A stretch of DNA of 56,023 nucleotides from an uncultured Eubacterium sp. GTDB lineage: Bacteria; Bacillota; Clostridia; Lachnospirales; Lachnospiraceae. The stretch is taken from positions 1 to 56,023 of the forward strand of contig CATLIX010000019.1 in NCBI GenBank assembly GCA_949959185.1. The letters run 5' to 3'. Within the stretch, counting starts at the first letter, position 1. Every line of letters begins with the position of its first letter. A program made the position numbers and the translations under genes. Under the pieces are notes generated by a model, which saw only the letters and a program-made list of their open reading frames with translations, was not told the origin of the DNA and did no database searches. Below are positions 1 to 20,800 of the stretch, in pieces.

Positions 1-77
1 GAATCCGGCCTCTTTGCCGAAGGCAAACTGGAACAGGCCGGATTCAGTAACTATGAAGCCGAAGGCTGAATAGTTAC
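1..77. repeat. Partial copy of a dispersed hairpin-rich intergenic repeat
   Basis: The segment holds two nested inverted repeats. GAATCCGGCC (1-10) pairs with GGCCGGATTC about 35 bp on, and GTAACTAT pairs with ATAGTTAC. It ends at 77 with GGCTGAATAGTTAC. Read on the other strand it matches the left part of the element at 50876-51019 over about 75 bp. That copy begins with the same 14-mer, so this is a second copy in inverted orientation, cut by the window edge. It lies just upstream of the recombinase ribosome binding site. Function is unknown. Confidence 0.75.
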
Positions 78-115
78 GAAAAAACCGGTTCACAGCCTTT
101 ACAAGGAGGAAAATT

Positions 116-696
116 ATGAGTAAAACCCAGCCTATCCGACAGACCAGCCAACTGGCAGAAGTAAAAAAATACTATCTTACCGAGTGTCCCAATCCGCGCA
201 ATTACGCCCTGATTATTCTGGGCCTGAATACTGCGCTGCGTATTGGTGATATTCTGAAAATTACCTGGGACATGGTATATGATTTCAATACCGGACAGTT
301 TCGTTCTCATTTACATCTGACAGAACAGAAAACAAAAAGGAAACCATGATTGCCCTGAACCGCATGGCGGTTACCGCACTGGAACTGCTGCGCCAGAATC
401 AGTGCCCCATACAGCCAGGCGCCTGTCTGTTTGCAGGTCAAAAAGACAGAACATCCCATATCAGCCGCCAGCAGGCCTACCGAATCATAAAAAAAGCCGC
501 AGATTATGCCAGCCTGCCGGAGCATATCAGCTGTCACTCTCTGCGGAAAACTTTTGGTTACCATGCCTGGAAAAACGGAACTCCTCCGGCACTTCTGATG
601 GCTATCTTCAATCATTCTTCCTATCAGATTACAAAGCGTTATCTGTGTATTGAACAGGAAGATATGGACGATGTGTTCTGCCATCTTAATCTTTAA
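116..696 (+). pseudogene. Short tyrosine recombinase/integrase split by a -1 frameshift
   Basis: This is a tyrosine-type site-specific recombinase of about 190 residues consisting of little more than the catalytic domain, like the short FimB/XerC-like enzymes. An ATG at 116 follows a strong AAGGAGG. The first reading frame (116-349) carries the first catalytic arginine in ALRIGDIL and ends at a stop. The second (346-696) carries HSLRKTFGYH (H-x-x-R) and the nucleophile tyrosine in TKRYLCIEQ. The frames join by one step backwards at an A5G run (334-339). The full catalytic set is therefore present but split. This is either a fresh single-base deletion, which would make it a pseudogene, or ribosomal slippage on the A-rich run. 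No core-binding N-terminal domain is seen. A terminator follows at 763-805. Confidence 0.8.
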
Positions 697-762
697 GGAA
701 TAAAAATTTTTAAATAGCTATAAAGTATTTGTAATCTGCACCGATATATAAGATACAGACTA

Positions 763-805
763 AAAATGTAACCTTTGTCAATAAAAGGTTACATTTTTTA
801 TTTTA
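763..805 (+). terminator. Rho-independent terminator after the recombinase
   Basis: A perfect 14-bp stem, AAAATGTAACCTTT (763-776) with AAAGGTTACATTTT (784-797), encloses a 7-nt loop and is followed by a T-rich tract. It ends the recombinase transcript before the deacetylase promoter. Confidence 0.85.
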
Positions 806-879
806 TTCTAACCATATTGTTTCTGTTTATGCAAAACCGGTTTCATCCTGTACCGGCAGACTTCCTCTATCCACACACC

Positions 880-908
880 TTGAACCCTGTATGCCAGTGG
901 TGTATAAT
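880..908 (+). promoter_or_regulatory. SigA-type promoter of the polysaccharide deacetylase gene
   Basis: A TTGAAC -35 box (880-885) and a consensus TATAAT -10 box (903-908) are separated by exactly 17 bp. Transcription would begin near 915, leaving a short leader with AAAGGAG before the ATG at 941. Confidence 0.8.
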
Positions 909-940
909 AAGAGAAACATCACACAAAGGAGTACTAAATC

Positions 941-3142
941 ATGAGATCAGAATTCAAACACAAAAGAAGCACCTGTGTTCTGCTGGCAATGCTGCTGGCC
1001 CTGTCCTGCAGCATAACACCTCTGCAGGCGGAGGCAGCCTCTCCGGCGGAACAGGAAGAGACTTTGCCGGCAGAACAGGCAGAAACTTTGCCGGCAGAAC
1101 AGGAAAAAGCCTTACAGGAAACATCTTCCGGCAAAAGGGATTACGAAAACAGCTCCGGGGAGGAACTTTCCACAGAACACCTGGAACTGCCGGAATTACC
1201 GGAAGAATTATCCAGAGAACCGGAAACAGTCACGGAAACCGCCGGAGAAAATAGTTCCCCTCAGGCAGAAGGGGAAAATATTCCCGCTGACGGGCTGGTA
1301 CAGCAGGGAAATTATTATGTTCTCTATGTGGGAGGCCAGCAGGTAACTGCTGCCGGATGGCAGGAACTTCCCACGGGAAAATTTCTCATTGACGCCGACA
1401 GCCATGTGGCTGCCCGCATGGAAGCGGCCGGCAGTTCCTGGCTGTTCTTTCAGTACAGTTCCGATACCCTTTCCTGGGAACTCCGGGGCAATATCTGGGA
1501 AACCGTAAACGGTAAAGATTATTATTTTGACACCACCGGAATCTGTACGAAGATTTTTGACACGGTTTCCGCACAGCTAACTGTTTTTGCCAATGACCGG
1601 ATGATTCCGGCAAACAATTACATATATCCGCTGAAAGACGGGCGCATATATTATTTTGACGCCGCAGGCATCTGCAACACCCTTTCCGAATGGAAAAAAA
1701 TTTCATCTGCAGAATGGTATTATGTAAATGGAGATGGATATGTATCGGACAAACTGACAAGTAACAAAAACCTCCGGAAATATTACGTCTACAATTACAG
1801 CACATCTCAATGGGAAAAACAGAAAGACGTCTGGAAAACCATAGAAGGAAAAGAGTATTATTTTAATGCCAGAGGAAAATGCGTAAGAATTTATAATCCT
1901 GCCACAGAAAAATGCCAGAAATACGAAAACGGCAAACTGGTTAAAATCAGAAAAGATATTGTCCGCCTGAAAAATGGAAAATATTATTATTTTAACGGCA
2001 AAGGCATCCGGGTAACGAAAAAAGGGTGGCAGAAACCTTCCGGCAAACAGTATATGGAAATCGGGAAAAAGGGCTATGTAACCGGTAAAATAACGAAATC
2101 CGGAAATACCTGGAAATGCTACCGGTATGACTACAAAGACAGCAAATGGAAGAAACAGAAGAAGGTCTGGAAAACCGCCGACAAAAAAGTCTTCTATTTT
2201 AATGGTTCCGGCAAGTGTACCCTGCTTTACAACAAAAAAACCGGAAAATGCTACGATTACAAAAGCGGAAACATGGTTGTTGTCAGAAATGATGTGCGCG
2301 ACATTCAGGGTACCCGGTATTATTTCGCTTCCAACGGTATAAGAAACAGTTCGCCGGGTCTGTATCTTACCGCTTCCGGCCGAATTATTTATGCGGAATC
2401 CAATGGAACCGTAAGCCGGGAGCTGTCCGGAGAAATTCTGGAATATACCGAAGCAGGTGGGAAAATTACCTCCTGCCGAATCCGTGACGGTCATTTTATG
2501 TGCTATTATAACAGTTCCGGAACCTTAACAAGGCAGATTGATTTGAATCAGCCCATGGTGGCGCTGACATACGATGACGGTCCCTCCCAGTATACCTCAG
2601 AAATTCTGGATATCCTGGCGCAATACGGGGGTACAGCAACCTTTTTTGTGGTGGGGAATCGGGTACCTTCCTGGCCCGGCGTGTTAAAGCGCGCTTTTGA
2701 TATGGGATGTGAAATCGGCAATCACACCTACGACCACAAAATTCTGACCAAAACGGACGTTGCCACTATTCAAAGCCAGATAAATGGAACAAACGCAGCG
2801 GTACAGAGCATTACCGGTGTTTCGCCGGCTGTCATGCGTCCGCCGGGAGGGGGATACAATGGTACGGTTTCCGCCGCAGTGGGAATGCCCATCATTTTAT
2901 GGTCCATTGATACTCTGGACTGGAAAACCAGAAATCCTCTGCTGACCCAGGCATCCGTTCTGAACCATGTACAAAACGGTGATATTATCCTGATGCATGA
3001 TCTCTACAGCCAGACGGCCGCCGCGTCCGGAGTTATTATTCCGGAACTGCGTAACCGCGGTTATCAGCTTGTAACTGTCAGTGAGCTTTCTGACTGCCGG
3101 GGCGCCATGTCCAATGGAAGCGTGTACCACGCCTTTCCCTGA
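941..3142 (+). CDS. Secreted polysaccharide deacetylase with cell-wall-binding-like repeats
   Basis: This 733-residue exported protein probably removes acetyl groups from peptidoglycan or another surface glycan. It has a signal peptide (about residues 1-33, KR-rich then hydrophobic, ending LQAEA). A low-complexity stretch follows with repeated LPAEQ(A/E)E units (about 36-60). Some 400 residues of aromatic repeats come next, of the form YYF(D/N)xxGxC, resembling choline/glucan-binding cell-wall repeats. The C-terminal NodB domain (about 540-720) has all expected motifs: TYDDGPS (Asp545, Asp546), the metal ligands His595 and His599 in NHTYDH, RPPGG, DTLDW and ILMHD. The start follows AAAGGAG. 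It stands alone between its own promoter and terminator. The substrate cannot be read from sequence. Confidence 0.88.
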   Translation: MRSEFKHKRSTCVLLAMLLALSCSITPLQAEAASPAEQEETLPAEQAETLPAEQEKALQETSSGKRDYENSSGEELSTEHLELPELPEELSREPETVTETAGENSSPQAEGENIPADGLVQQGNYYVLYVGGQQVTAAGWQELPTGKFLIDADSHVAARMEAAGSSWLFFQYSSDTLSWELRGNIWETVNGKDYYFDTTGICTKIFDTVSAQLTVFANDRMIPANNYIYPLKDGRIYYFDAAGICNTLSEWKKISSAEWYYVNGDGYVSDKLTSNKNLRKYYVYNYSTSQWEKQKDVWKTIEGKEYYFNARGKCVRIYNPATEKCQKYENGKLVKIRKDIVRLKNGKYYYFNGKGIRVTKKGWQKPSGKQYMEIGKKGYVTGKITKSGNTWKCYRYDYKDSKWKKQKKVWKTADKKVFYFNGSGKCTLLYNKKTGKCYDYKSGNMVVVRNDVRDIQGTRYYFASNGIRNSSPGLYLTASGRIIYAESNGTVSRELSGEILEYTEAGGKITSCRIRDGHFMCYYNSSGTLTRQIDLNQPMVALTYDDGPSQYTSEILDILAQYGGTATFFVVGNRVPSWPGVLKRAFDMGCEIGNHTYDHKILTKTDVATIQSQINGTNAAVQSITGVSPAVMRPPGGGYNGTVSAAVGMPIILWSIDTLDWKTRNPLLTQASVLNHVQNGDIILMHDLYSQTAAASGVIIPELRNRGYQLVTVSELSDCRGAMSNGSVYHAFP

Positions 3143-3150
3143 GACTGCAT

Positions 3151-3196
3151 AAAACAGCCAGACTCCTCAGAATTGAGGATTCTGGCTGTTTTTATT
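3151..3196 (+). terminator. Terminator between convergent deacetylase and infA
   Basis: The stem AAAACAGCCAGA (3151-3162) with TCTGGCTGTTTT (3181-3192) has an inner CCTCA/TGAGG stem and a T-rich tail. Reading the other way it also ends in a short T run, so it may serve both strands. A second inverted repeat (CCCTGTCC/GGACAGGG, 3198-3234) lies between it and infA. Confidence 0.8.
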
Positions 3197-3247
3197 CCCT
3201 GTCCATCAATCCTGAAGGAATTGACGGACAGGGAAGCCCGTTTTGTT

Positions 3248-3466
3248 CTATTTATCTCTCCATATGATTCTTCCTTTTGTCAGGTCATAGGGGGACATTT
3301 CAATGGTGACTTTATCTCCCGGAAGAATACGGATAAAATTCATTCTCAGTTTTCCGCTGATATGGGCCAGAATCTGGTGTCCATTTTCCAGTTCCACCTG
3401 AAACATGGCATTCGGCAGCTTTTCCACTACCGTTCCTTCTACTTCGATTACGTCTGCTTTTGACAT
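3248..3466 (-). CDS. infA: Translation initiation factor IF-1
   Basis: IF-1 binds the A site of the 30S subunit during initiation. The 72-residue product is the normal family length and is a single S1-like OB fold, with the recognisable [21 protein letters not shown] and [18 protein letters not shown] segments. Its start overlaps the end of the upstream KOW-domain gene by 19 nt, so the two are translationally linked. It is the last gene of the ribosomal operon here. rpmJ, rpsM and rpsK, which usually follow, are replaced by a convergent secreted-protein gene. Confidence 0.97.
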
Positions 3467-3735
3467 ATTGTTTCCTCCTGATATTCCATGCTTTTCTGAT
3501 AAAGCTGAATGGCTCTTTTTATTTCTTCATTCCGAAAATTCTCCTGCGTAAAGACTTCTGTAATTTCTTTCGGAAGCTGTTTTATTATCTGAATATGTTT
3601 TCTGTTCTTTTTTTTCGGCTTTTCCAGTGGTTTTAATTTACCATCCGCCAGATACACCATATCGGCTTCTTCTTTTACAATTACATAAATGCTGTCTTTG
3701 TCGTGACCGGATCTGGAAACTGCTAATTTTATATC
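3448..3735 (-). CDS. KOW-domain RNA-binding protein
   Basis: This is a small basic protein of about 95 residues found between map and infA in many Clostridia and annotated as KOW-domain or L14e-like. The N-terminal part ([21 protein letters not shown]) is the KOW-like beta barrel. The middle is lysine-rich ([11 protein letters not shown]), as expected for RNA contact. An in-frame ATG lies five codons upstream, but the ATG at 3735 has a GGAG at correct spacing and is preferred. The exact role, probably ribosome-associated, is not established. Confidence 0.85.
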
Positions 3736-3793
3736 CATGGTTTTCTCCATCTTCCTGCGGACAGACGTTTACTCACATCTGCTTTCAGCCTGA

Positions 3794-4567
3794 TTATGCC
3801 AGGTTGCCTTCCATGCCTGAAAGACTCAGGATTTCCGGCTCCCCGGATGTCACCAAAATTGTATTTTCGTAATGGGCGGACAACGAACCGTCCTGTGTTA
3901 CAACCGTCCAGTTGTCATCCTGCCATGCCACATCAAAACGCCCTGCATTGATCATGGGTTCAATTGCCAGTGTCATGCCTGCTTTCAGTCTTACGCCTCT
4001 GCTTTTCTGGGTAAAATTGGGAATCTGGGGGTCTTCATGGAGCCGGGTTCCTATCCCGTGCCCTACCAGATCCCGGACTACTCCATATCCAAAGCTCTCC
4101 GCGTAAGTAGCAATTGCATTAGAAATCTCATGTAGATGATTGCCTTCTTTTGCGTATTTTATGCCTTCAAAAAAACTCTGCCTGGTTCTTTCAATCAGCA
4201 GGGAGGCTTCTTTTGAAATCTCCCCGATTCCGTGAGTTCGGGCTGCGTCGGAGTGATATCCTTTATAAATGACTCCGATATCCAAGCTTACAATGTCGCC
4301 TTCTCTGAGCTTTCGTTTCCTGGTGGGAATCCCGTGGACTACCTCATCATTTACCGATACGCACACCGAAGCCGGATATCCATTGTAATTTTTAAAGGAT
4401 GGAATGCACCCGTAACTCCGGATAATTTCTTCTCCCAGACGGTCGATGTCCAGAGTAGACATGCCTTCCTTCAATTCCTTTTCCAGATTTTCATGCACCT
4501 TTTCCAGGATTTTTCCTGCTGCCCGCATTAACTCAATTTCTCTGGCAGATTTAATTGATACTGACAT
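3794..4567 (-). CDS. map: Methionine aminopeptidase type I
   Basis: This enzyme removes the initiator methionine from nascent cytosolic proteins. The 257-residue protein is the usual length. Metal ligands expected for the pita-bread fold are visible: Asp in VSLDIGV, Asp in HSDAARTH, His in VGHGIGTRLHE, Glu in AIEPM and Glu in HYENTI. The gene lies 3 nt downstream of adk, the standard adk-map arrangement of the spc operon. Confidence 0.97.
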   Translation of the reverse strand: MSVSIKSAREIELMRAAGKILEKVHENLEKELKEGMSTLDIDRLGEEIIRSYGCIPSFKNYNGYPASVCVSVNDEVVHGIPTRKRKLREGDIVSLDIGVIYKGYHSDAARTHGIGEISKEASLLIERTRQSFFEGIKYAKEGNHLHEISNAIATYAESFGYGVVRDLVGHGIGTRLHEDPQIPNFTQKSRGVRLKAGMTLAIEPMINAGRFDVAWQDDNWTVVTQDGSLSAHYENTILVTSGEPEILSLSGMEGNLA

Positions 4568-4570
4568 TTT

Positions 4571-5215
4571 TTACGCTCCTAAAATTCCCACAATGGCACC
4601 AAATACATCTTCCATTGGCTGGGTTCCGTCTACGGTCTTTAAAATATTCTGTTTTTTGTAATAATCAATCAATGGCTGTGTCTGTTCATGGTAAACATCC
4701 AGACGTTTCTTTACCGTTTCCGGCTGGTCGTCGTCTCTCAGTACTACTTTGTTGCCGCAGCGATCACAGATACCTTCCACTTTGGTGGGGATGGAAACGA
4801 TATGATAAGTTGCGCCGCAGTTCAGACATGCGCGTCTTCCGGACATTCTATTGATAATATTTTCGTCGGGAACGTCCACATCAATGGCATAATCCATTTT
4901 TTCATTAATTTTTGCCAGGGCCGCATCCAGTGCTTCCGCCTGGGGAATGGTTCTTGGAAATCCGTCCAGAACAAAACCGTTTTTGCAGTCTTCCTGTCCA
5001 ATACGGTCCATAACCAGATCGCAGGTCAGTTCATCAGGAACCAGAAGCCCCTGATCCATGTACTCTTTTGCTTTTTTTCCAAGGTCAGTGCCTGCTTTCA
5101 GGTTGGCCCGGAAAATATCTCCGGTAGAAATATGAGGAATGGAATATTTGTCTGCAATCTGTTTTGCCTGTGTTCCTTTTCCTGCTCCCGGTGCTCCTAA
5201 CATAATAATCTTCAT
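4571..5215 (-). CDS. adk: Adenylate kinase
   Basis: It interconverts ATP plus AMP and two ADP. The 214-residue product starts with [16 protein letters not shown], carrying the P-loop GAPGAGKGT, and the ATG follows AAGGAGG at 5215; an upstream in-frame ATG lacks support. A LID zinc site is visible as CLNCG and CDRCG, so this is the long, zinc-bearing Gram-positive form. The nucleotide-monophosphate site (HISTGDIFR) and DGFPRT motif are intact. A hairpin in the 69-nt gap to secY may modulate expression. Confidence 0.97.
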
Positions 5216-5243
5216 ACCTGTCTCCTCCTTTTTTACTCTGAAT

Positions 5244-5270
5244 GCCTGGCCGTCCGCAGACAGGCCAGGC
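5244..5270. other. Intergenic hairpin between secY and adk
   Basis: A perfect 8-bp inverted repeat, GCCTGGCC (5244-5251) and GGCCAGGC (5263-5270), has an 11-nt loop. There is no T run, so it is more likely an mRNA stability or processing element within the operon than a terminator. Confidence 0.6.
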
Positions 5271-5284
5271 ATAGTCATAACTTA

Positions 5285-6604
5285 TCAGTCATTTAAAAAA
5301 CCTTTATAATAGCGTACCAGCATCTGGGACTCAATCTGTTTCAGTGTTTCGATGACAACACCTACTATAATGATAATAGATGTTCCGCCGAAAGACACAT
5401 TGGCGCTGAATACTCCGTTGAAGAAAATCGGAATAACCGCAACAATCATAAGTCCAACTGCTCCGATAAACACAATATAATTCAGAATTTTCGTCAGATA
5501 ATCACTGGTTGGTTTTCCAGGTCTGATGCCCGGGATAAACCCGCCCTGACGTTTCATATTATTTGCCACTTCCAGCGGATTGAAGGTGATGGATGTATAG
5601 AAATATGCAAACGCAATAACCAGTACAATGTACACCAGCAAACCGATACTGTAAATGGGGTTTTCCGGATCACACCAGTAGGACTGGGACAATCCGTGGA
5701 GAATTTTGCTTCCGATTCCTGTTCCCTGGCCTTTTCCCATAATGGTTGCAATAATGACCGGGAACTGCATAATGGACTGGGCAAAAATAATAGGGATTAC
5801 GCCGGCAGTATTTACCTTCAGGGGAATATGGCTGGACTGGCCGCCCACCTGTCTCCGGCCCTGAATTTTCTTACTGTACTGTACCGGAATCCTGCGCTCT
5901 CCATCCTGCAGAATAATAACGAATACCACAGTAACCAGAATGACTGCCAGAATTACCGCTGCCGCGATAATTGCATTTCCCACGTTGGGAGCGTTTGCAA
6001 TAAACTGGGTGTAAAGGGTCATCAAATCTTCCGGAATCCGGGAAATAATATTGATTACCAGCACGATGGAAATACCATTTCCCACGCCATGCTCCGTAAT
6101 CCGCTCGCCAATCCACATCAGAACTGCAGAACCTGCGGTCAGGCCGGTCACCATCATGATGACGTGGGGTGCGTCAAACTTATCCAGATATCCGCCCCGG
6201 CCAAACCCGATGGCCATGGCAATGGACTGAATCAGTGCAAGGGCAACCGTTACATAACGTGTAATCTCTGCAATCTTTTTTCTTCCATCTTCTCCGTCCT
6301 TCTGCATTTCTTCCAGCTTCGGTATGGCTATGGTAAGAAGCTGCATAATGATGGAAGATGTGATATACGGCGTGATATTCAGTGCAAATACTGACATCTG
6401 TTCAAAGGAACCGCCCGTGATGGCGTCAAAAAAGTTCAGTGCGTCGGTTCCCTGGGCTGCAAACCAGTTTGCAATGACATCGCCTTTTACACCAGGAAGG
6501 GGAAGCTGGGAGCCGATACGGATAATCACCAGCATTGCCATCGTATAGAAAATACGATTCCTGATATCTTTTATTTTAAATGCATTGCGGAGTGTCTCCA
6601 GCAT
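5285..6604 (-). CDS. secY: Protein translocase subunit SecY
   Basis: SecY is the membrane channel of the Sec secretion system. The 439-residue protein has the expected ten hydrophobic segments and hallmark stretches such as LGITPYITSSIIMQLL near the N-terminus, GERITEHGVGNGIS in the middle and PGIRPGKPTSDYL in the cytosolic loop. The ATG overlaps the rplO stop codon by one base, so the two are coupled. Its position after rplO and before adk is canonical. Confidence 0.98.
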   Translation of the reverse strand: MLETLRNAFKIKDIRNRIFYTMAMLVIIRIGSQLPLPGVKGDVIANWFAAQGTDALNFFDAITGGSFEQMSVFALNITPYITSSIIMQLLTIAIPKLEEMQKDGEDGRKKIAEITRYVTVALALIQSIAMAIGFGRGGYLDKFDAPHVIMMVTGLTAGSAVLMWIGERITEHGVGNGISIVLVINIISRIPEDLMTLYTQFIANAPNVGNAIIAAAVILAVILVTVVFVIILQDGERRIPVQYSKKIQGRRQVGGQSSHIPLKVNTAGVIPIIFAQSIMQFPVIIATIMGKGQGTGIGSKILHGLSQSYWCDPENPIYSIGLLVYIVLVIAFAYFYTSITFNPLEVANNMKRQGGFIPGIRPGKPTSDYLTKILNYIVFIGAVGLMIVAVIPIFFNGVFSANVSFGGTSIIIIVGVVIETLKQIESQMLVRYYKGFLND

Positions 6605-7047
6605 TAGATCACCTCTGCTTTTCCACCAAGAGCTTCAATCTTTTCTTTTGCGCCTTCACTGAACGCATTTACCTGTACGGTCAGCTTCTTGGTAAGCTCT
6701 CCTCTTCCAAGGATTTTCACACCGTCTCTCGGTTTCTTAATGATTCCCTGCTCCAATAATGCTTCTATCGTTACCACTGCATTGTCTTCAAATTTTTCTT
6801 CCAGAACTTCCAGATTCACTGTAACGATATCTTTTGAATTGATGTTGGTAAATCCGCGTTTGGGGATTCTCCTGTATAAAGGCATCTGACCGCCTTCAAA
6901 TCCTGGTCTCGGTGCTCCGGAACGAGCCTTCTGACCTTTGTGTCCCTTACCTGCTGTCTTACCATTTCCGGAACCATGACCGCGGCCTCTTCTGAAATTA
7001 TTGCTGTGCTTTGAACCTGCTGCCGGTTTTAAATTTGATAAGTCCAT
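6604..7047 (-). CDS. rplO: 50S ribosomal protein L15
   Basis: L15 is a late-assembly protein of the large subunit. The 147-residue product has the glycine- and arginine-rich N-terminal tail ([20 protein letters not shown]) and the conserved [17 protein letters not shown] segment. It lies between rpmD and secY and overlaps the secY start by one base. Confidence 0.98.
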
Positions 7048-7070
7048 GTTGACACCTCCTTACTGTTCTC

Positions 7071-7253
7071 TTAGATTTCTTCTACTTTCACTAAATGTTT
7101 TACCTGTCTTACCATCCCTCTGACTGCTGCGTTATCGGGCATTTCCACACTGTGGTTTAATTTTCTCAGACCCAGTGCTTCTACTGTCTTACGGTTCTTT
7201 GGTACCGCGCCGATTGGGGATTTCACAAGGGTGATTTTTAATTTCTCTGCCAT
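7071..7253 (-). CDS. rpmD: 50S ribosomal protein L30
   Basis: This is the short bacterial form of L30 (60 residues). It starts [20 protein letters not shown] and has the typical [21 protein letters not shown] block. It sits 14 nt downstream of rpsE and upstream of rplO, the standard order. Confidence 0.97.
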
Positions 7254-7267
7254 TTTTCATATCCTCC

Positions 7268-7777
7268 TTAACCGAGTATCTCTTCTACAGATTTACCGCG
7301 GAGTTTTGCTACCTCTTCCGGAGATTTCAACTGACTTAAAGCATTAATCGTAGCAAGAACTACGTTCTGCTTGTTGTTGGAGCCCAGAGATTTTGTACGG
7401 ATGTTTTTGATTCCGGCCAGCTCGCATACGCTACGTGCCGGACCGCCGGCAATTACACCGGTACCTTCGGGAGCTCTCTTTAACAGTACGGACGCACCGG
7501 TATGTTTTCCGGTGATATCATGAGTAATACTGTTGTTATCATCTAATTTTACAGAAATCAGTTTCTTGATTGCGTCTTCTTTCCCTTTGCGGATTGCTTC
7601 GGGAATTTCCGTTGCTTTTCCTAAACCTGCACCTACATGACCATTGCTGTCGCCAACAACAACCAAAGCTGTAAAACGCATGTTACGTCCGCCCTTTACA
7701 ACCTTTGTTACACGTTTGATTGATACTACTTTTTCTGTTAATTCCAATTGACCAGCATCAATAATTGTACGTTTCAT
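7268..7777 (-). CDS. rpsE: 30S ribosomal protein S5
   Basis: S5 contributes to decoding accuracy and mRNA entry. The 169-residue protein has the double-stranded-RNA-binding-like N-terminal domain ([21 protein letters not shown]) and the S5 C-terminal domain with [21 protein letters not shown]. Length and position between rplR and rpmD are normal. Confidence 0.98.
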
Positions 7778-11754: not shown

Positions 11755-12410
11755 TATTTATCGCTCCCTTCCTTTGTGTCTTTTGTTGGAAGGATCTCGC
11801 CTTTGTAAATCCATACCTTTACTCCGACTTTTCCGTAAGTGGTATCTGCTTCGGCGAATCCATAGTCGATGTCTGCTCTTAATGTCTGAAGGGGAATGGT
11901 TCCCTCACTGTAAAATTCAGTACGTGCCATGTCGGCGCCGCCCAGACGTCCGGATACGGAACTCTTGATTCCCAGTGCTCCGGCTTTCATACTTCTGCCC
12001 ATGCAGGATTTCATGGCTCTTCGGAAAGAAACACGGTTCTCTAACTGAAGGGCAATGTTTTCTGCTACTAACTGAGCGTCTTTGTCCGGCCGTTTTACTT
12101 CTTTGATGTCTACTACCAGTTTTTTATCTGTAAATTTCTGAAGTTCTGCCTTTACTTTTTCAATTTCAGCTCCGCCTTTTCCGATTACCACACCTGGTTT
12201 TGCGGTATAAAGGATTACCTTTACCCGGTCGGAAGCTCTCTCTATCTCAATTTTGGAAACTCCTGATGCATATAATTTCTTTTTCAGAAATGTTCTGATA
12301 TTGTAGTCTTCTACCAGAAAATCCGCAAAATCACCTTCTGCATACCATTTAGAGTCCCAGTCTTTGATAATTCCAACTCTTAAACCATGAGGATTTACTT
12401 TCTGTCCCAT
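11754..12410 (-). CDS. rpsC: 30S ribosomal protein S3
   Basis: S3 lines the mRNA entry channel. The start at [13 protein letters not shown] (12410) gives 218 residues; an in-frame ATG ten codons earlier lies within the rplV coding end. The KH domain is visible ([19 protein letters not shown]), as is the C-terminal domain (GLADMART-like [20 protein letters not shown]). Confidence 0.97.
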
Positions 12411-12420
12411 GTTCGCCCTC

Positions 12421-12807
12421 CTATCTTTCATCAAGCACAATTGTAATGTGGCTCATTCTCTTTTCGATTCTGTAAGCTCTTCCCTGTGCTCTCGGTCTGA
12501 CTCTCTTCATTGTTGGTCCTTTGTTTGCATAGCATTCTGCAATGTAAAGATTCTCTGTGTTCATGCCGTTGTTATTTTCCGCATTGGCAATTGCAGATTT
12601 CAGCAGTTTCTCTATTACGCCGGATGCGTATCTTGGATTATACGCCAGAATTGCCAGTGCAGTCCGTACGTCTTTTCCGCGGATTGCGTCAAGTACGAAG
12701 CAGGCTTTCTGAACAGATACCCTTGCATAAGATAACTTTGCTGACGGTCTGGTATCTTTCTGCGCGTTTCTTTCTCTCTTAATTTGACTTCTGTGTCCTT
12801 TCGCCAT
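12421..12807 (-). CDS. rplV: 50S ribosomal protein L22
   Basis: L22 contacts all domains of 23S rRNA and lines the exit tunnel. The 128-residue product has [20 protein letters not shown] and the tunnel hairpin region [18 protein letters not shown]. It is placed between rpsS and rpsC. Confidence 0.98.
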
Positions 12808-16131: not shown

Positions 16132-16351
16132 AAAAAAAGTCGCCTCCTTTTCGCACTTTACCTCAGTACGACAAGCGGTGACTGTACACTTCTCCGTGTG
16201 TGTCATAACTTTTACACGGCTTCTGCAATTCTGCAGATTCTATATTGTGATACAGTGACTTGTCGCCAGTTTCCTAACTTGACATTCGCTCCACGGAAAA
16301 CCTGCCTTTTGAGGCAGCAACCTCGCGCTTCATCGCTATCATGCCACAGCA
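16132..16351 (-). promoter_or_regulatory. Leader of the S10 operon mRNA
   Basis: About 220 nt lie between the predicted transcription start and rpsJ. The leader can form CTGCCT/AGGCAG and CTGCA/TGCAG hairpins. It can also make a long-range pairing between CGACAAG (near 16260) and CTTGTCG (near 16172), close to the ribosome binding site. There is no obvious coding content. A long leader is what autogenous control by a ribosomal protein needs, but no known ligand motif was recognised. Confidence 0.5.
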
Positions 16352-16426: not shown

Positions 16427-16619
16427 GTAACAGGACAGACAGGTCTGCGCACTTGCTGCGCTGACCGTGAGAATATGATTCAGGAGAGCAAAAATCCTAT
16501 TGCGAAGCAATTTTAAATGGATTTTTGCATGTAACAGGGCAGCTTGTCTGAACTGTTACAACTATTACACATTCTCACGGACTTTGCAGCAAGTGCAAAG
16601 TCCTGGGCTGAACTCTTAC
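16427..16619. repeat. Multi-hairpin intergenic repeat between the S10 promoter and the cyclase-like gene
   Basis: The 193-bp stretch holds a nested set of inverted repeats. An outer pair is CCGTGAGAAT (16465-16474) and ATTCTCACGG (16571-16580). Inner stems are GCAAAAATCC/GGATTTTTGC (16488-16528) and GTAACAG/CTGTTAC (16531-16559). Two tight hairpins share a GCAAG loop (seen as CTTGC in one orientation): 16442-16465 with one mismatch, and 16579-16603 with 10 perfect pairs. The ends (GTAACAGG; GGGCTGAACTCTTAC) resemble those of the elements at 1-77 and 50876-51019. It starts 3 bp past the stop of the cyclase-like gene and could terminate or stabilise that transcript. Confidence 0.65.
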
Positions 16620-16621
16620 TA

Positions 16622-17944
16622 TTAAATGTACCCCTCAGCTACTACCAGGTCCACTGTCTCATCCTCAGACAGTACACAGGCAAAACACCAGCCTTTTCTT
16701 TTATACTTTTTATGAACCCAGTTCACATAATTAGCCAGAGAATTATACCTGGCTCCCCTGTCCGGTCTTCCGGGAATTACCGCCTCTCCGTCCAGAATGG
16801 CCCCTGCCAGATGGCATCTGCCTTTTGCATCTGCTACAATTGCTCCGTCAACTGCAGAAATTCCCATTATTTTATCTCTGTTCTTTTTCTGTAACATGGG
16901 GAATGGTTCCATCTGATATGCCCGCTTATTCTTTACCAGACGCTCGCTCTCTTTTTTCAGCATATTCCAGCTCATAAACACAATGGAGGTTCCATGTTTC
17001 TGTTCTTTCAGCATGTCCACAATTTTCTTTACGATATCTTCTTTTATGTTCCACTCCGGACGCCTGTTTATCAGAGAATCCAATTCCTTCTGCCACCTCT
17101 CATCTTTTTCTCCCCCTTCCAGCGCTGGAATTCTGTATTTTCCCTCGCGGTACTCAAATAATACCTGATTATCTTCCAGTACTTCCCAGCTTAAATGCCC
17201 TTTAAAAGCAACAGAAATTGCCGGCAATTCTGAAGATTTCTTTGAAAGAATTCCTGTAACGTTGTACGTTTCTTCTTCTTTTGACAGAAGCAGCCCTCCG
17301 CTGCTTCCGGACATCTCCATCATTTTCCGAATCGCCCGTGTATTTTCCGGCAAAAGTTTCCATTCTCCAGATTCTCCGGATTCTTTCTCTTTGACAAATA
17401 CGAGTTCTCCCCGCTGTTCCGGACACCCAAAATACATTCTGGTTTCCACCATTCTCTGCTCGTATTTCTGAGCAGATATCTGTATCAGCAGTTCCGGCGC
17501 CGGAAGCTCCTTCTCTCTTATCATCTTTTTTACAAACCGGTCAACCAGCCATTCCCGCTCCAGCATTTCTCCCATAAGCGCTTTCAACAGTCTGCTTTCA
17601 CCGGACTCCCCGGAATCTGCCAGATGTTCTTCCAATACTTCCAGATGCAGCAGATTTGTAAAGCGTTTTTCCAGTTCTTCCAGTATCATTTCCAGAAAAT
17701 ACTGCAGCGTCCTGTCCGGACTTTCCCCGCGAAACAGCCATCCTGCCTTCGTTTTCTTTTCCTCTGCTGTCAGGCGCGCGTCATCCCATTCTGTTCTCCT
17801 GCCGCTGCAAATAACAGCTTCTTTTGGACTCATACCCAGATAAAATTCCAACTCTGCATTGGATGGAAATTTTTTAAATTCCTGCCTGAGCCGTTTCATA
17901 AAAAATCCGCAAAATACTTCTCCTGTATTCCCTTCCTCATGCAT
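16622..17944 (-). CDS. DisA_N (diadenylate cyclase-like) signalling protein with an N-terminal sensor-like region
   Basis: The last 140 residues of this 440-residue protein match the DisA_N/DAC fold that condenses two ATP into cyclic di-AMP. It has KKIVDMLKEQKHGTSIVFM, then AVDGAIV (Asp366-Gly-Ala), an AGAILDG strand, RGARYNS (396-402) where canonical enzymes have the RHR motif, and a final strand near VLSEDETVDLV. The segment around 203-275, with FKGHLSWEVLEDNQVLFEY, resembles the domain seen before DisA_N in some stand-alone DAC proteins; residues 1-200 are unrecognised, rich in charged helices. No transmembrane segment is seen, so it should be cytosolic. It overlaps the upstream metallopeptidase-like gene by 8 nt (ATGCATGA), implying coupled translation. 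The RHR to RYN change means the product, or activity, may differ from c-di-AMP synthesis. Confidence 0.75.
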   Translation of the reverse strand: MHEEGNTGEVFCGFFMKRLRQEFKKFPSNAELEFYLGMSPKEAVICSGRRTEWDDARLTAEEKKTKAGWLFRGESPDRTLQYFLEMILEELEKRFTNLLHLEVLEEHLADSGESGESRLLKALMGEMLEREWLVDRFVKKMIREKELPAPELLIQISAQKYEQRMVETRMYFGCPEQRGELVFVKEKESGESGEWKLLPENTRAIRKMMEMSGSSGGLLLSKEEETYNVTGILSKKSSELPAISVAFKGHLSWEVLEDNQVLFEYREGKYRIPALEGGEKDERWQKELDSLINRRPEWNIKEDIVKKIVDMLKEQKHGTSIVFMSWNMLKKESERLVKNKRAYQMEPFPMLQKKNRDKIMGISAVDGAIVADAKGRCHLAGAILDGEAVIPGRPDRGARYNSLANYVNWVHKKYKRKGWCFACVLSEDETVDLVVAEGYI

Positions 17945-20639
17945 ACTCCCGTTCTTCTGTCTCCTCTCCCTTTTTCTGAATCTCCTCCTGCAGACATTGC
18001 TTATATCTGTCTATGTACTCCTGCATATCCCAAACCAGTTCTTCTGCATTTTCCCGGCTCTTACGATAAATATCCATCAGCTGCTCCTGTTCCCTTTTCA
18101 GTTCAGACTGTTCCCCGTTTTGCCCCTCCAGGGCTTCCTGAAAACTTGCTTTGCACTTCAGAAGATAAGCCGCAATACATTCCAGAACCTGGCTGTCCAA
18201 AAATGCATCCACTGTTTTGTAAGGAAAAGCTATCGCATAGCCGCTTTCTTCTCCAAAATATCTGTCCAGAAAACTTCGGATATCAACGGCCATCCCTTTC
18301 AGCCCCGGATTTTTCCCTTCGTCAACCTTTCCCCATTCCATATCTGTCCAGCAAAATCCTCTTTCACTGTTCCTTCCAGCCATACAATAAGCCAGCAAAC
18401 CGCTTCGGATTACCATTTCCGCCGGCATCTCCCAATCCTGCATTCCCTGGTCAGAAGCACTCTTCCAAATAGTATACAAATAGTCTTCCAGGGATAATTC
18501 CAGCGTCAGGATGACCACCAGATCAGCCTCGCATTCTTTAAAAAAGCTCATCATCATATCAACGGCCTGTTCTACTGAAAACTGGTTCTTATCCCAGAAG
18601 AAAATCCTGTTTACCTTTTTGGCAATATCTCCCTGCTTTTCAGAAAACGCCCTCTGCTTTCTGGCTGCCTGCGATACACCCTGTTCTATCCAGCGCAGAT
18701 ACTCTGTTTCACTCAGATACCCAAACAGTTCTTCTCTTTTATAAATCAGCACCTGGTCCACACTGTCCAGTAAAATTCCTTTGAGCCAATAAGTATAATA
18801 CCGGTACGCCTGATGCATGTCAGAAAGAGCATTCAGCTCCTCCTCTTTTTTTACATGAAATCTGTATTTTTTCAGCTTCTCTCTATCTTCCCAATATGCT
18901 ATCTGGGCCCTGAGAAATTTATAAAGCCTTTGTTCAAATACACACCAGTATGCTTCGTTCTGAATTTCTGCGTATTCTTCCCTTAATTCCACTTTAAAAA
19001 ATTTTGCTGTGATATTAGCCACAATTTTAACAGCACAGTCATACCGATATTCTCTGTTGCGAACTGTCTGTCCCACAAAATGCCCCACTTCATGGCTCAG
19101 CATAATCAGCATAAGTTTCATATCATAAATCTGATTTTCCGGTATACTGACGAAAAACAGCCTCTTATTTTCAGACATGTTTTTAAACAGTTCCCATACC
19201 TGAACATTACTGACAACCCCCAGACTGGTGAGGAATTCATATTCGTGTTCTGGTGTGTTCTCTTCCCCTGTTTTACCCAGAAATCTTTTCATATAGTAAA
19301 GAAAGGCATTATAAAATGCATTGAGACGTACCGGAGCATTATATATTCTGATATCCAAATCAAGAGACTGTGTGAACTGCCTGTCTGAGCGTACAGAATT
19401 CTGAACGCAGAGATTCAGGCTTTTCACAAATTCATAAAAATTATCATAAAAATGAAGATTGTTGATATTCCCGGCCTCTCCCGCAATCTGCAGTACCATA
19501 TGTACAGGCAGATACATGGAATAATAGATATAATCCTGAACAGGTGTATTTTCAAACTTCTGCAATGCATTGGTAATCTGATACAGATACCGTTCCAGTG
19601 TTCCGGCAGAAAATCCCTCCTGAGTTTCTCTGACTTTGCAAATCAATGTTCTGAGTTTTTCTCCCAGTTTCCGGCAGGCTTCCTGAAAAGGAGTCTCAGC
19701 AATTTTCTCAGGGCTTTCCCAGGAAATTTGCAGGGCTTCTTCATCATTCTGAATACCGGTTATAATCGTCGTAAGCCCGATAAAAGAATCCCTGTATTCC
19801 GGGCAGCTGTGATTCAGCCTGCCATTCCCATCCCGAAAAAATGTCAGAAAATCATACCATGACATATCTTCTATAATCATCACTTCATCGTTACAGCCCA
19901 GAATGGATTCTTTTCTCACGAGTTTATCACATTTTTCATCCATTTTCTTCCTGATATATTCAATGCTTCCGGGCTGACGTTCAATTGCATAAATATAAAC
20001 GCGCCCCACTCTTTTTTCCTGCAGTCGTTCTATCCCGGAACCATTCAGAAATTTTTTCTGCACAGCAGAAACCGTATAGCTATAGGATAATTTTATCCCA
20101 ATCTCCCTTAACAGAGATTCATCCTCTTTGCGATGGAATCCGTCAATCAGAACTGCTCCGTCTTCATATTCACGACATAAAAGAATCAGAAGCATGCTGC
20201 TGTTATCAAGGGTCAGATACGTAATAGCCTGTCTCCTGCCACCTTCTGATAAATTTTCTTCCAGCTTCCTCCTGTGGTTAATCCCCGCCCTGTCTTTCTC
20301 CATTGTACCCTGAATTAAAATAACAAAAATAAAGGGGTATTCCGTCCCCTTATCCAACGCTTCTTTCCAGAATTTATTATCATAGTCTCCGTTATCTTCC
20401 TCACTTCGAAAGCCATATATGATCTGGGCCGAATATCGTCCGTCCAGCTCCTGCATCTGATTCACATCATAATCCCAGAGCCTTTCCAGAGAACACCGGC
20501 CCTCCTGAAAAATATTATCTCCCACTTTAATTCCATCAAAATAACCAAAGGCTGTGTATTGCCATTTGTCATGCGGTTTATCATCCGGAGGCAAAAAATC
20601 ATTGTACAAAACAATTGGCCTGCATATATTATAAGCCAT
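17937..20639 (-). CDS. Large HEVGH metallopeptidase-like protein paired with the DisA_N gene
   Basis: The 900-residue protein is of unknown family. A zinc-binding HEVGH motif sits in a predicted helix (about residues 508-526, MLIMLSHEVGHFVGQTV). About 185 residues later FFKECEADLVVILTLEL offers the E-x-x-A-D style glutamate expected of gluzincin peptidases, so an active protease is plausible. The N-terminal 300 residues contain alternating strands and helices with no recognised motif; the C-terminus (about 835-895) is a charged coiled coil. No signal peptide or membrane span is apparent. The start is the ATG at 20639, with AAGGGG upstream; a GTG two codons earlier is the alternative. It overlaps the DisA_N gene, so the two probably form one system with this as sensor or effector. 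Substrate unknown. Confidence 0.7.
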   Translation of the reverse strand: MAYNICRPIVLYNDFLPPDDKPHDKWQYTAFGYFDGIKVGDNIFQEGRCSLERLWDYDVNQMQELDGRYSAQIIYGFRSEEDNGDYDNKFWKEALDKGTEYPFIFVILIQGTMEKDRAGINHRRKLEENLSEGGRRQAITYLTLDNSSMLLILLCREYEDGAVLIDGFHRKEDESLLREIGIKLSYSYTVSAVQKKFLNGSGIERLQEKRVGRVYIYAIERQPGSIEYIRKKMDEKCDKLVRKESILGCNDEVMIIEDMSWYDFLTFFRDGNGRLNHSCPEYRDSFIGLTTIITGIQNDEEALQISWESPEKIAETPFQEACRKLGEKLRTLICKVRETQEGFSAGTLERYLYQITNALQKFENTPVQDYIYYSMYLPVHMVLQIAGEAGNINNLHFYDNFYEFVKSLNLCVQNSVRSDRQFTQSLDLDIRIYNAPVRLNAFYNAFLYYMKRFLGKTGEENTPEHEYEFLTSLGVVSNVQVWELFKNMSENKRLFFVSIPENQIYDMKLMLIMLSHEVGHFVGQTVRNREYRYDCAVKIVANITAKFFKVELREEYAEIQNEAYWCVFEQRLYKFLRAQIAYWEDREKLKKYRFHVKKEEELNALSDMHQAYRYYTYWLKGILLDSVDQVLIYKREELFGYLSETEYLRWIEQGVSQAARKQRAFSEKQGDIAKKVNRIFFWDKNQFSVEQAVDMMMSFFKECEADLVVILTLELSLEDYLYTIWKSASDQGMQDWEMPAEMVIRSGLLAYCMAGRNSERGFCWTDMEWGKVDEGKNPGLKGMAVDIRSFLDRYFGEESGYAIAFPYKTVDAFLDSQVLECIAAYLLKCKASFQEALEGQNGEQSELKREQEQLMDIYRKSRENAEELVWDMQEYIDRYKQCLQEEIQKKGEETEEREYA

Positions 20640-20733: not shown

Positions 20734-20800
20734 TTTTTGTTCTATAGGAAAGATACTTTCACGCATTATCGTGGCAAGTATCTTTCCTATAGAACAAAAA
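20734..20800. repeat. Perfect 25-bp inverted repeat
   Basis: The arms at 20734-20758 and 20776-20800 are perfectly complementary over 25 bp, and the 17-nt loop itself holds CACG/CGTG. The arms begin TTTTTGTTCTATAGG and end AGAACAAAAA. It lies between the terminator of the 69-residue gene and the metallopeptidase-like gene. A second long hairpin (GATGCGC/GCGCATC with TTGCC/GGCAA inside, about 20676-20731) follows toward that gene. It may be a terminator, a small non-autonomous element or a binding site. Confidence 0.8.

Follow-up and report, generated by a model that had tools for sequence, protein, structure and literature searches.

Why a gene resembling those of diadenylate cyclases (DACs) should be joined to one encoding a 900-residue protein with an HEVGH motif is the question raised by a 56,023-nucleotide (nt) stretch of contig CATLIX010000019.1, from an uncultured Eubacterium sp. 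of the Lachnospiraceae (hereafter, the window). On its minus strand, gene B is followed by gene A, which it overlaps by 8 nt (Table 1). The open reading frames (ORFs) agree with a preliminary description of the sequence, which reported two overlapping genes for a DisA_N-like protein and a 900-amino-acid (aa) HEVGH protein and likened them to a signal-and-effector module of defense or stress systems. The defense association is supported, indirectly, by our results. Two outcomes that would have spoken against that description did not arise: homologues of both genes do lie together in other genomes, and a DAC fold is predicted. The peptidase as the effector is not favored, because elsewhere B sits beside SIR2 or multi-segment membrane proteins that look like effectors themselves. 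We conclude that the A-B pair is most likely a mobile anti-phage module. Observations in favor of this reading include the pairing itself, the exchange of partners, the parallel divergence of A and B, an empty site in a congener, and the kinship of A with the DACs of the DS2_3 family.

Gene B and its partners

Gene B was patchily distributed. Including the source genome (3.4 Mb in 114 contigs), it was found in 8 of the 299 genomes drawn from the family, 4 of the 392 from the order, and 1 of the 398 from the phylum. A scan of named genomes that started from three DAC-linked B proteins returned 10 loci, nine labelled Lachnospiraceae or genera placed there and the tenth Clostridiaceae. Three of these repeated earlier loci and were counted once (L031, L032, and L036 coincide with L019, L022, and L020, respectively). 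The total was 18 distinct B loci, 17 besides the window; L035 and L037 were counted as two, yet they are near-identical in B.

Conserved pairing, proposed as a check in the preliminary description, was observed: the partner was a DAC-bearing A protein at 11 of the 18 loci (the window; L003, where B is decayed; L017; L031-L034; L036; L038-L040). Two loci carried an A-like protein that ends before the DAC domain (L035 and L037; the L035 protein had no Pfam match), two a SIR2 protein (L023 and L029), and two a membrane protein with three or five hydrophobic segments (L018 and L021). No recognized partner was present at the remaining locus (L030), where the next upstream gene is AAA-ATPase-like with a weak PDDEXK_3 match; as a single occurrence it was left out of the partner count. 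When the eight family genomes were taken alone, the partner was a DAC in five, a membrane protein in two, and SIR2 in one; this set is less biased, though it was found with the window B as query.

Gene order was B-then-A in the clade of the window and A-then-B in all others, with adjacency kept. The B tree, in which L018 and L030 have long branches, joins the window and L017 to L018, a locus with a membrane partner (100/98), and sets them apart from the loci where A comes first. It follows from this placement that a DAC either became paired on two occasions or underwent rearrangement and loss. The distances of A and B were correlated (mirror-tree, r = 0.83 over 12 pairs), and none of 10,000 permutations reached as high a value.

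At L037, an RdrB-like gene (5.9e-32) lies upstream of the A-like gene and B, as does a gene, cut by the locus edge, that resembles RdrA weakly and in part (6.2e-8, over residues 7-107 of 700). An AMP-binding/carrier protein is encoded directly upstream of the DAC-less A-like gene and B. L035 (2-7723) holds counterparts of the L037 genes (1-7693), its AMP-binding/carrier protein having a sub-threshold QueC match. At L031, a third gene (11904-12560) overlaps the end of B by 4 nt and encodes two hydrophobic segments. This gene probably specifies a SLATT-type membrane effector, to judge from these segments and from an RTasSLATT match by one unnamed member of the flanking ORFs scanned with PADLOC (107 of 159, none from the window or L003; threshold 1e-10). 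A plasmid search for a named relative of the third gene found nothing. SLATT proteins elsewhere are predicted to be nucleotide-responsive pore-formers (PMC7159879, available portion).

An empty site and a decayed second copy

In one congener (G1027), approximately 335 bp separate rpsJ from the orthologue of the 221-aa gene that flanks the pair in the window, and this interval contains neither A nor B. Two other small ORFs fill this interval in another congener (G1033). Among the eight congener regions fetched, rpsJ lies beside the 221-aa orthologue only in two (L065 and L068); in the other six the 221-aa gene has different neighbors, and the interval is not fixed across the genus. No match to A or B was listed in any of the eight regions.

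The source genome itself contains a second pair (L003; contig 2, 16728-19946). Its DAC gene, A2, is intact (37% identity). Its B2 is broken, with approximately residues 116-283 and 466-539 unmatched, the latter including the HExxH motif. By tblastn, the window B had no match in plasmids or phages and the L019 B had none in plasmids; no relatives of B were found in viral contigs.

Protein A

The nucleotide-messenger-type domain of the preliminary description was borne out by structure prediction, which gave A a DAC fold. The preceding DACNH domain scored above the cut-off (28.3 bits vs. 27; the whole-genome search returned the identical span). The profile search that had been suggested gave a divided result: A matched DACNH and, in part, the NCBI model DS2_3_antiphage (NF053872), and B had no Pfam peptidase match. 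Six A homologues reach the Pfam cut-off for DAC, with 27.0-41.7 bits (L019, L020, L022, L079, L080, and L082), and the A protein of L017 gave no DAC match in Pfam at E up to 1. The canonical DAC motifs are DGA and RHR; A differs from the DisA/CdaA diadenylate cyclases in having RxN for RHR, a DACNH domain in front, and B as its partner. The product of A would presumably be cyclic di-AMP (c-di-AMP), which is a normal messenger in this phylum. Because a further DAC gene, one that passes the Pfam cut-off, is present in the host genome, c-di-AMP is probably native to the host.

From its name, we take DS2_3_antiphage to be the DAC of the DS-2 system. The match of A to this model (E = 5.8e-34) is partial, covering residues 200-434 and leaving the N-terminal 199 residues outside, and scores 117 bits vs. 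a cut-off of 630. By sequence, A is thus a diverged relative of the DS2_3 DACs and not a member by the NCBI cut-off. Two plasmid DACs exceed the cut-off (712 and 804 bits). Both adjoin a patatin phospholipase and a nucleotidyltransferase, the layout of the cyclic oligonucleotide-based antiphage signaling system (CBASS), and both carry GxRYNS, as A does; at the DGA position these two proteins have DGT. A had no PADLOC match. On a Priestia megaterium plasmid (L047, 5287-9565), we also observed a DS2_3-related diadenylate cyclase gene adjoining genes for a DNA cytosine methyltransferase and an NgoFVII-type restriction endonuclease.

The preliminary description went too far, with respect to A, in knowing of no characterized system. 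In the available portion of the report on DS-2 (PMC13092281), this anti-phage system is described as a phospholipase, a cGAS-like enzyme, and a DAC, and DAC catalytic mutants lost defense; its authors state that DAC had not been validated in phage defense before. That validation was made inside one CBASS-type system. A shares with the DS2_3 members above the cut-off the DACNH-DAC half and the DG...GxRYNS pattern, but its partner is the zincin-like B, and no CD-NTase (cGAS/DncV-like nucleotidyltransferase) or phospholipase was seen beside it. The same holds for CBASS: two plasmid-borne relatives of A are found in loci of CBASS type, whereas the A-B unit has no visible CD-NTase or Cap protein (no CD-NTase or Cap effector among the ORFs at 12-26 kb of the window, read by eye). 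A two-gene version without a CD-NTase would let the role of the DAC (signal, poison, or guard) be probed directly.

DACNH-DAC genes were also seen without B. DACNH exceeded its cut-off in 3 of the 299 family genomes, and all four matches were A genes beside B or a B remnant. A wider A profile had matches in 7 of the 392 order genomes; one match (G140) covered 31 profile positions in a 63-aa frame and was dropped as a fragment before partners were counted. Three of the seven remaining genes adjoin B or a remnant (the source genome twice, and G028), and B was absent among the ORFs of the stretches fetched for the other four (L079-L082; L079 and L081 are short contigs). At L079 (1485-10169), the DACNH-DAC-like gene follows a calcineurin-like phosphoesterase (metallophosphoesterase), and an IetAS pair lies farther on, past a gene that looks by eye like a serine recombinase. 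At L082 (7028-9916), the DACNH-DAC gene abuts an HD-domain, dGTPase-like gene, possibly another two-gene module. The neighbor at L081 is a DUF2971 protein matching a PADLOC candidate family, and an AbiO/Nhi-like ORF lies approximately 3 kb from the DACNH-DAC gene of L080. DACNH-DAC proteins therefore keep varied company too, several of the neighbors being defense-like.

Protein B

B seems to represent an undescribed family, as far as sequence and literature searches reach. Searches of Pfam, PADLOC, and NCBIfam (E up to 10) and of PDB sequences (E up to 1) gave no match to it. A B profile gave two chance-level matches in PDB (E = 0.43 and 1.9), and the 16 aligned members gave 18 weak single-member matches in Pfam (best E = 0.011), none of them to a peptidase. 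The assignment of B to a known defense or peptidase family was rejected, since sequence and profile searches gave no significant match. No description of this DAC/metallopeptidase pair was seen among the titles and abstract openings listed by literature searches; Galperin 2023, on DAC architectures, could have noted it.

The plausible zinc peptidase of the preliminary description retains its support from two motifs conserved in all aligned members and placed in confidently modelled helices. HExxH falls within helix 507-521 of the model (block predicted local distance difference test [pLDDT] score of 91) and ExxxD, 181 residues away, within helix 689-713 (block pLDDT 92). The two form a gluzincin-like motif set and a putative zinc site. 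Gluzincin metallopeptidases have the M1/M4/M48-type motif set; B is like them in having HExxH plus a distal ExxxD, but differs in lacking a sequence match to Pfam peptidase families and in carrying ferredoxin-like domains in front. These modelled domains possibly sense a ligand or a partner. Hydrophobic segments were looked for in B and none were found.

Proposed mechanism and alternatives

We give a probability of slightly less than one half (approximately 0.45) to the reading that A and B make up an anti-phage module spread by horizontal transfer, with B as sensor or gate and A supplying the output through a cyclic dinucleotide. B would be the constant component, reading a cue of infection through the ferredoxin-like domains at its N terminus and carrying a gluzincin-like zinc peptidase domain after them; A, as a DACNH-DAC enzyme, would be the output component. 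Upon infection, B would switch A on, by cleavage or by contact, and activated A would turn ATP into a cyclic dinucleotide, presumably c-di-AMP. Since no dedicated receptor lies beside A, the burst would act on the c-di-AMP-controlled targets of the host itself, or else would drain ATP, and growth would stop before the phage multiplies. At loci where SIR2 or a membrane protein takes the place of A, this sensor would instead bring about loss of NAD or damage to the membrane. SIR2 and membrane proteins serve as effectors in other defense systems, and their presence among the alternative partners of B is why the sensing or gating role is best assigned to B and the output role to A.

A bolder proposal, to which we give rather low odds, is that B defines a modular anti-phage family of the Lachnospiraceae and their relatives, a ferredoxin-like/zincin sensor with interchangeable outputs (DAC, SIR2, membrane proteins, and the A-like protein beside RADAR-like genes), whose DAC version raises housekeeping c-di-AMP to a growth-stopping level with no need for a dedicated effector. 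A better grasp of B could show how gut Lachnospiraceae link the detection of infection to effectors that can be exchanged. The conflict systems of Kaur et al. also combine metallopeptidases, in interchangeable ways, with 2TM SLATT effectors and nucleotide enzymes, but they are VMAP/MoxR or GTPase systems, and the available portion of that report mentions no DAC-metallopeptidase pairing (PMC7159879).

Several observations weigh against the anti-phage reading. DAC-linked loci are oversampled, the named-genome search having been seeded with DAC-linked B proteins, and the parallel divergence of A and B may in part be the shared descent of the genomes. The A-like protein of L035 and L037 has no DAC domain, so a cyclase output is not always needed. 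As far as their surroundings were read, most B loci lie outside obvious defense islands, with flanks that are often housekeeping or polysaccharide genes (partly read by eye), and the PADLOC matches in the 107 flanking ORFs are scattered (among the best 25 of 43, one family had four members and the others one each). The window A scores 19 bits for DAC (PF02457), below the 27-bit Pfam cut-off, is missing from the matches listed when the whole genome was searched for DAC (E = 0.01), and has RYN in place of the canonical RHR. A c-di-AMP riboswitch was looked for in the host genome and none was found. We know of no defense assay for any B-containing locus.

The main alternative, which we consider unlikely, is a Panoptes-like decoy: A would produce a constant supply of cyclic dinucleotide that silences B, phage sponges or nucleases would deplete it, and the protease of B (or its partner) would then kill the cell. 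In Panoptes, a cyclase is combined with an effector whose toxicity is unleashed once the cyclic nucleotide has been captured by a phage sponge (PMC12657218, available portion), and a two-gene layout of cyclase plus partner fits this logic; the modelled domains of B could, moreover, bind a ligand. However, at some loci the neighbor of B is SIR2 or a membrane protein and no cyclase adjoins it, which implies that a nucleotide leash is not generally needed, and no nucleotide-binding domain was recognized in B (one of 16 members had a chance-level Guanylate_cyc match, E = 0.018). The components differ as well: OptE is a transmembrane effector, whereas B is a 900-aa protein with zincin motifs, and OptS is an mCpol cyclase, whereas A has a predicted DAC fold.

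Less probable again is a stress or envelope regulator, in which A would tune cellular c-di-AMP according to the potassium, osmotic, or cell-wall state sensed by B. The normal use of c-di-AMP in the phylum and the other DAC gene of the genome are in keeping with such a role, as is the location of several pairs among polysaccharide genes. The patchy occurrence, the empty site in a congener, the decayed second copy, the replacement of the DAC by SIR2 elsewhere, and the kinship of A with the DS2_3 DACs argue against it. Equally improbable, in our estimate, is that B is a scaffold whose HExxH and ExxxD motifs are structural or bind a cofactor. B has no sequence similarity to any peptidase family, its model is of middling quality (mean pLDDT 66.4), and zincin folds were absent among the matches listed by Foldseek and VIA-align. 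This last absence says nothing against a zincin, since the ferredoxin-like part fills the list. Both motifs, the HExxH glutamate included, are invariant among proteins with 14-45% identity to the window B, which would be unlikely for a merely structural site. The least probable reading is that A is catalytically dead and only a nucleotide-binding regulator, with B as the active enzyme: the change from RHR to RxN, the sub-threshold DAC score, and the two A homologues without a DAC domain would fit it, but two DACs that pass the DS2_3 cut-off also have RxN, the six A proteins of alignment A2 all keep DG and SED, and DS-2 lost defense in DAC catalytic mutants (PMC13092281, available portion).

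Limits and surroundings of the unit

Table 1. Features of the A-B unit and its borders (positions in the window)
Feature	Position	Strand	Description
Gene B	17937..20639	-	ORF; 900-aa zincin-like (HEVGH) protein of a family without a name
Tandem ferredoxin-like domains	19800..20639	-	B residues 1-280; alpha+beta barrel type, modelled
HExxH motif	19080..19094	-	H516-E517-V-G-H520; invariant in 16 of 16 aligned B proteins
ExxxD motif	18522..18536	-	E702 and D706; candidate third zinc ligand, gluzincin type; invariant in 16 of 16
Gene A	16622..17944	-	440-aa DACNH-DAC protein
DACNH domain	17180..17488	-	A residues 153-255; probable sensor domain; Pfam PF21750, E = 1.7e-6
DAC domain	16622..17080	-	A residues 289-440
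DGA motif	16841..16849	-	In the DAC domain; DG, then A or S, in 11 DAC-bearing A proteins
GARYNS motif	16739..16756	-	In place of canonical RHR; GxRxNS in all 11 DAC-bearing A proteins
25-nt perfect inverted repeat	20734..20800		Upstream of B; dispersed genome repeat
38-nt imperfect inverted repeat	16440..16605		Downstream of A; dispersed genome repeat
S10-Clostridia ribosomal leader	16260..16341	-	Rfam RF03136, 95.8 bits

The pair is flanked on one side by a group comprising the 221-aa gene, MATE, and lgt, and on the other by the S10 ribosomal operon (names read by eye). The S10-Clostridia leader marks the start of the next operon and therefore bounds the A-B unit on this flank. The flanking repeats of the preliminary description are real on both sides, though the two stretches are dispersed, with 35 and 56 matches across the genome; for this reason, they were ruled out as attachment sites. 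They are possibly elements similar to miniature inverted-repeat transposable elements. The B-SIR2 pair of L029 (6397-13215) lies just downstream of rpsD-rpoA-rplQ (genes read by eye) and the pair in the window just upstream of rpsJ; both border ribosomal operons.

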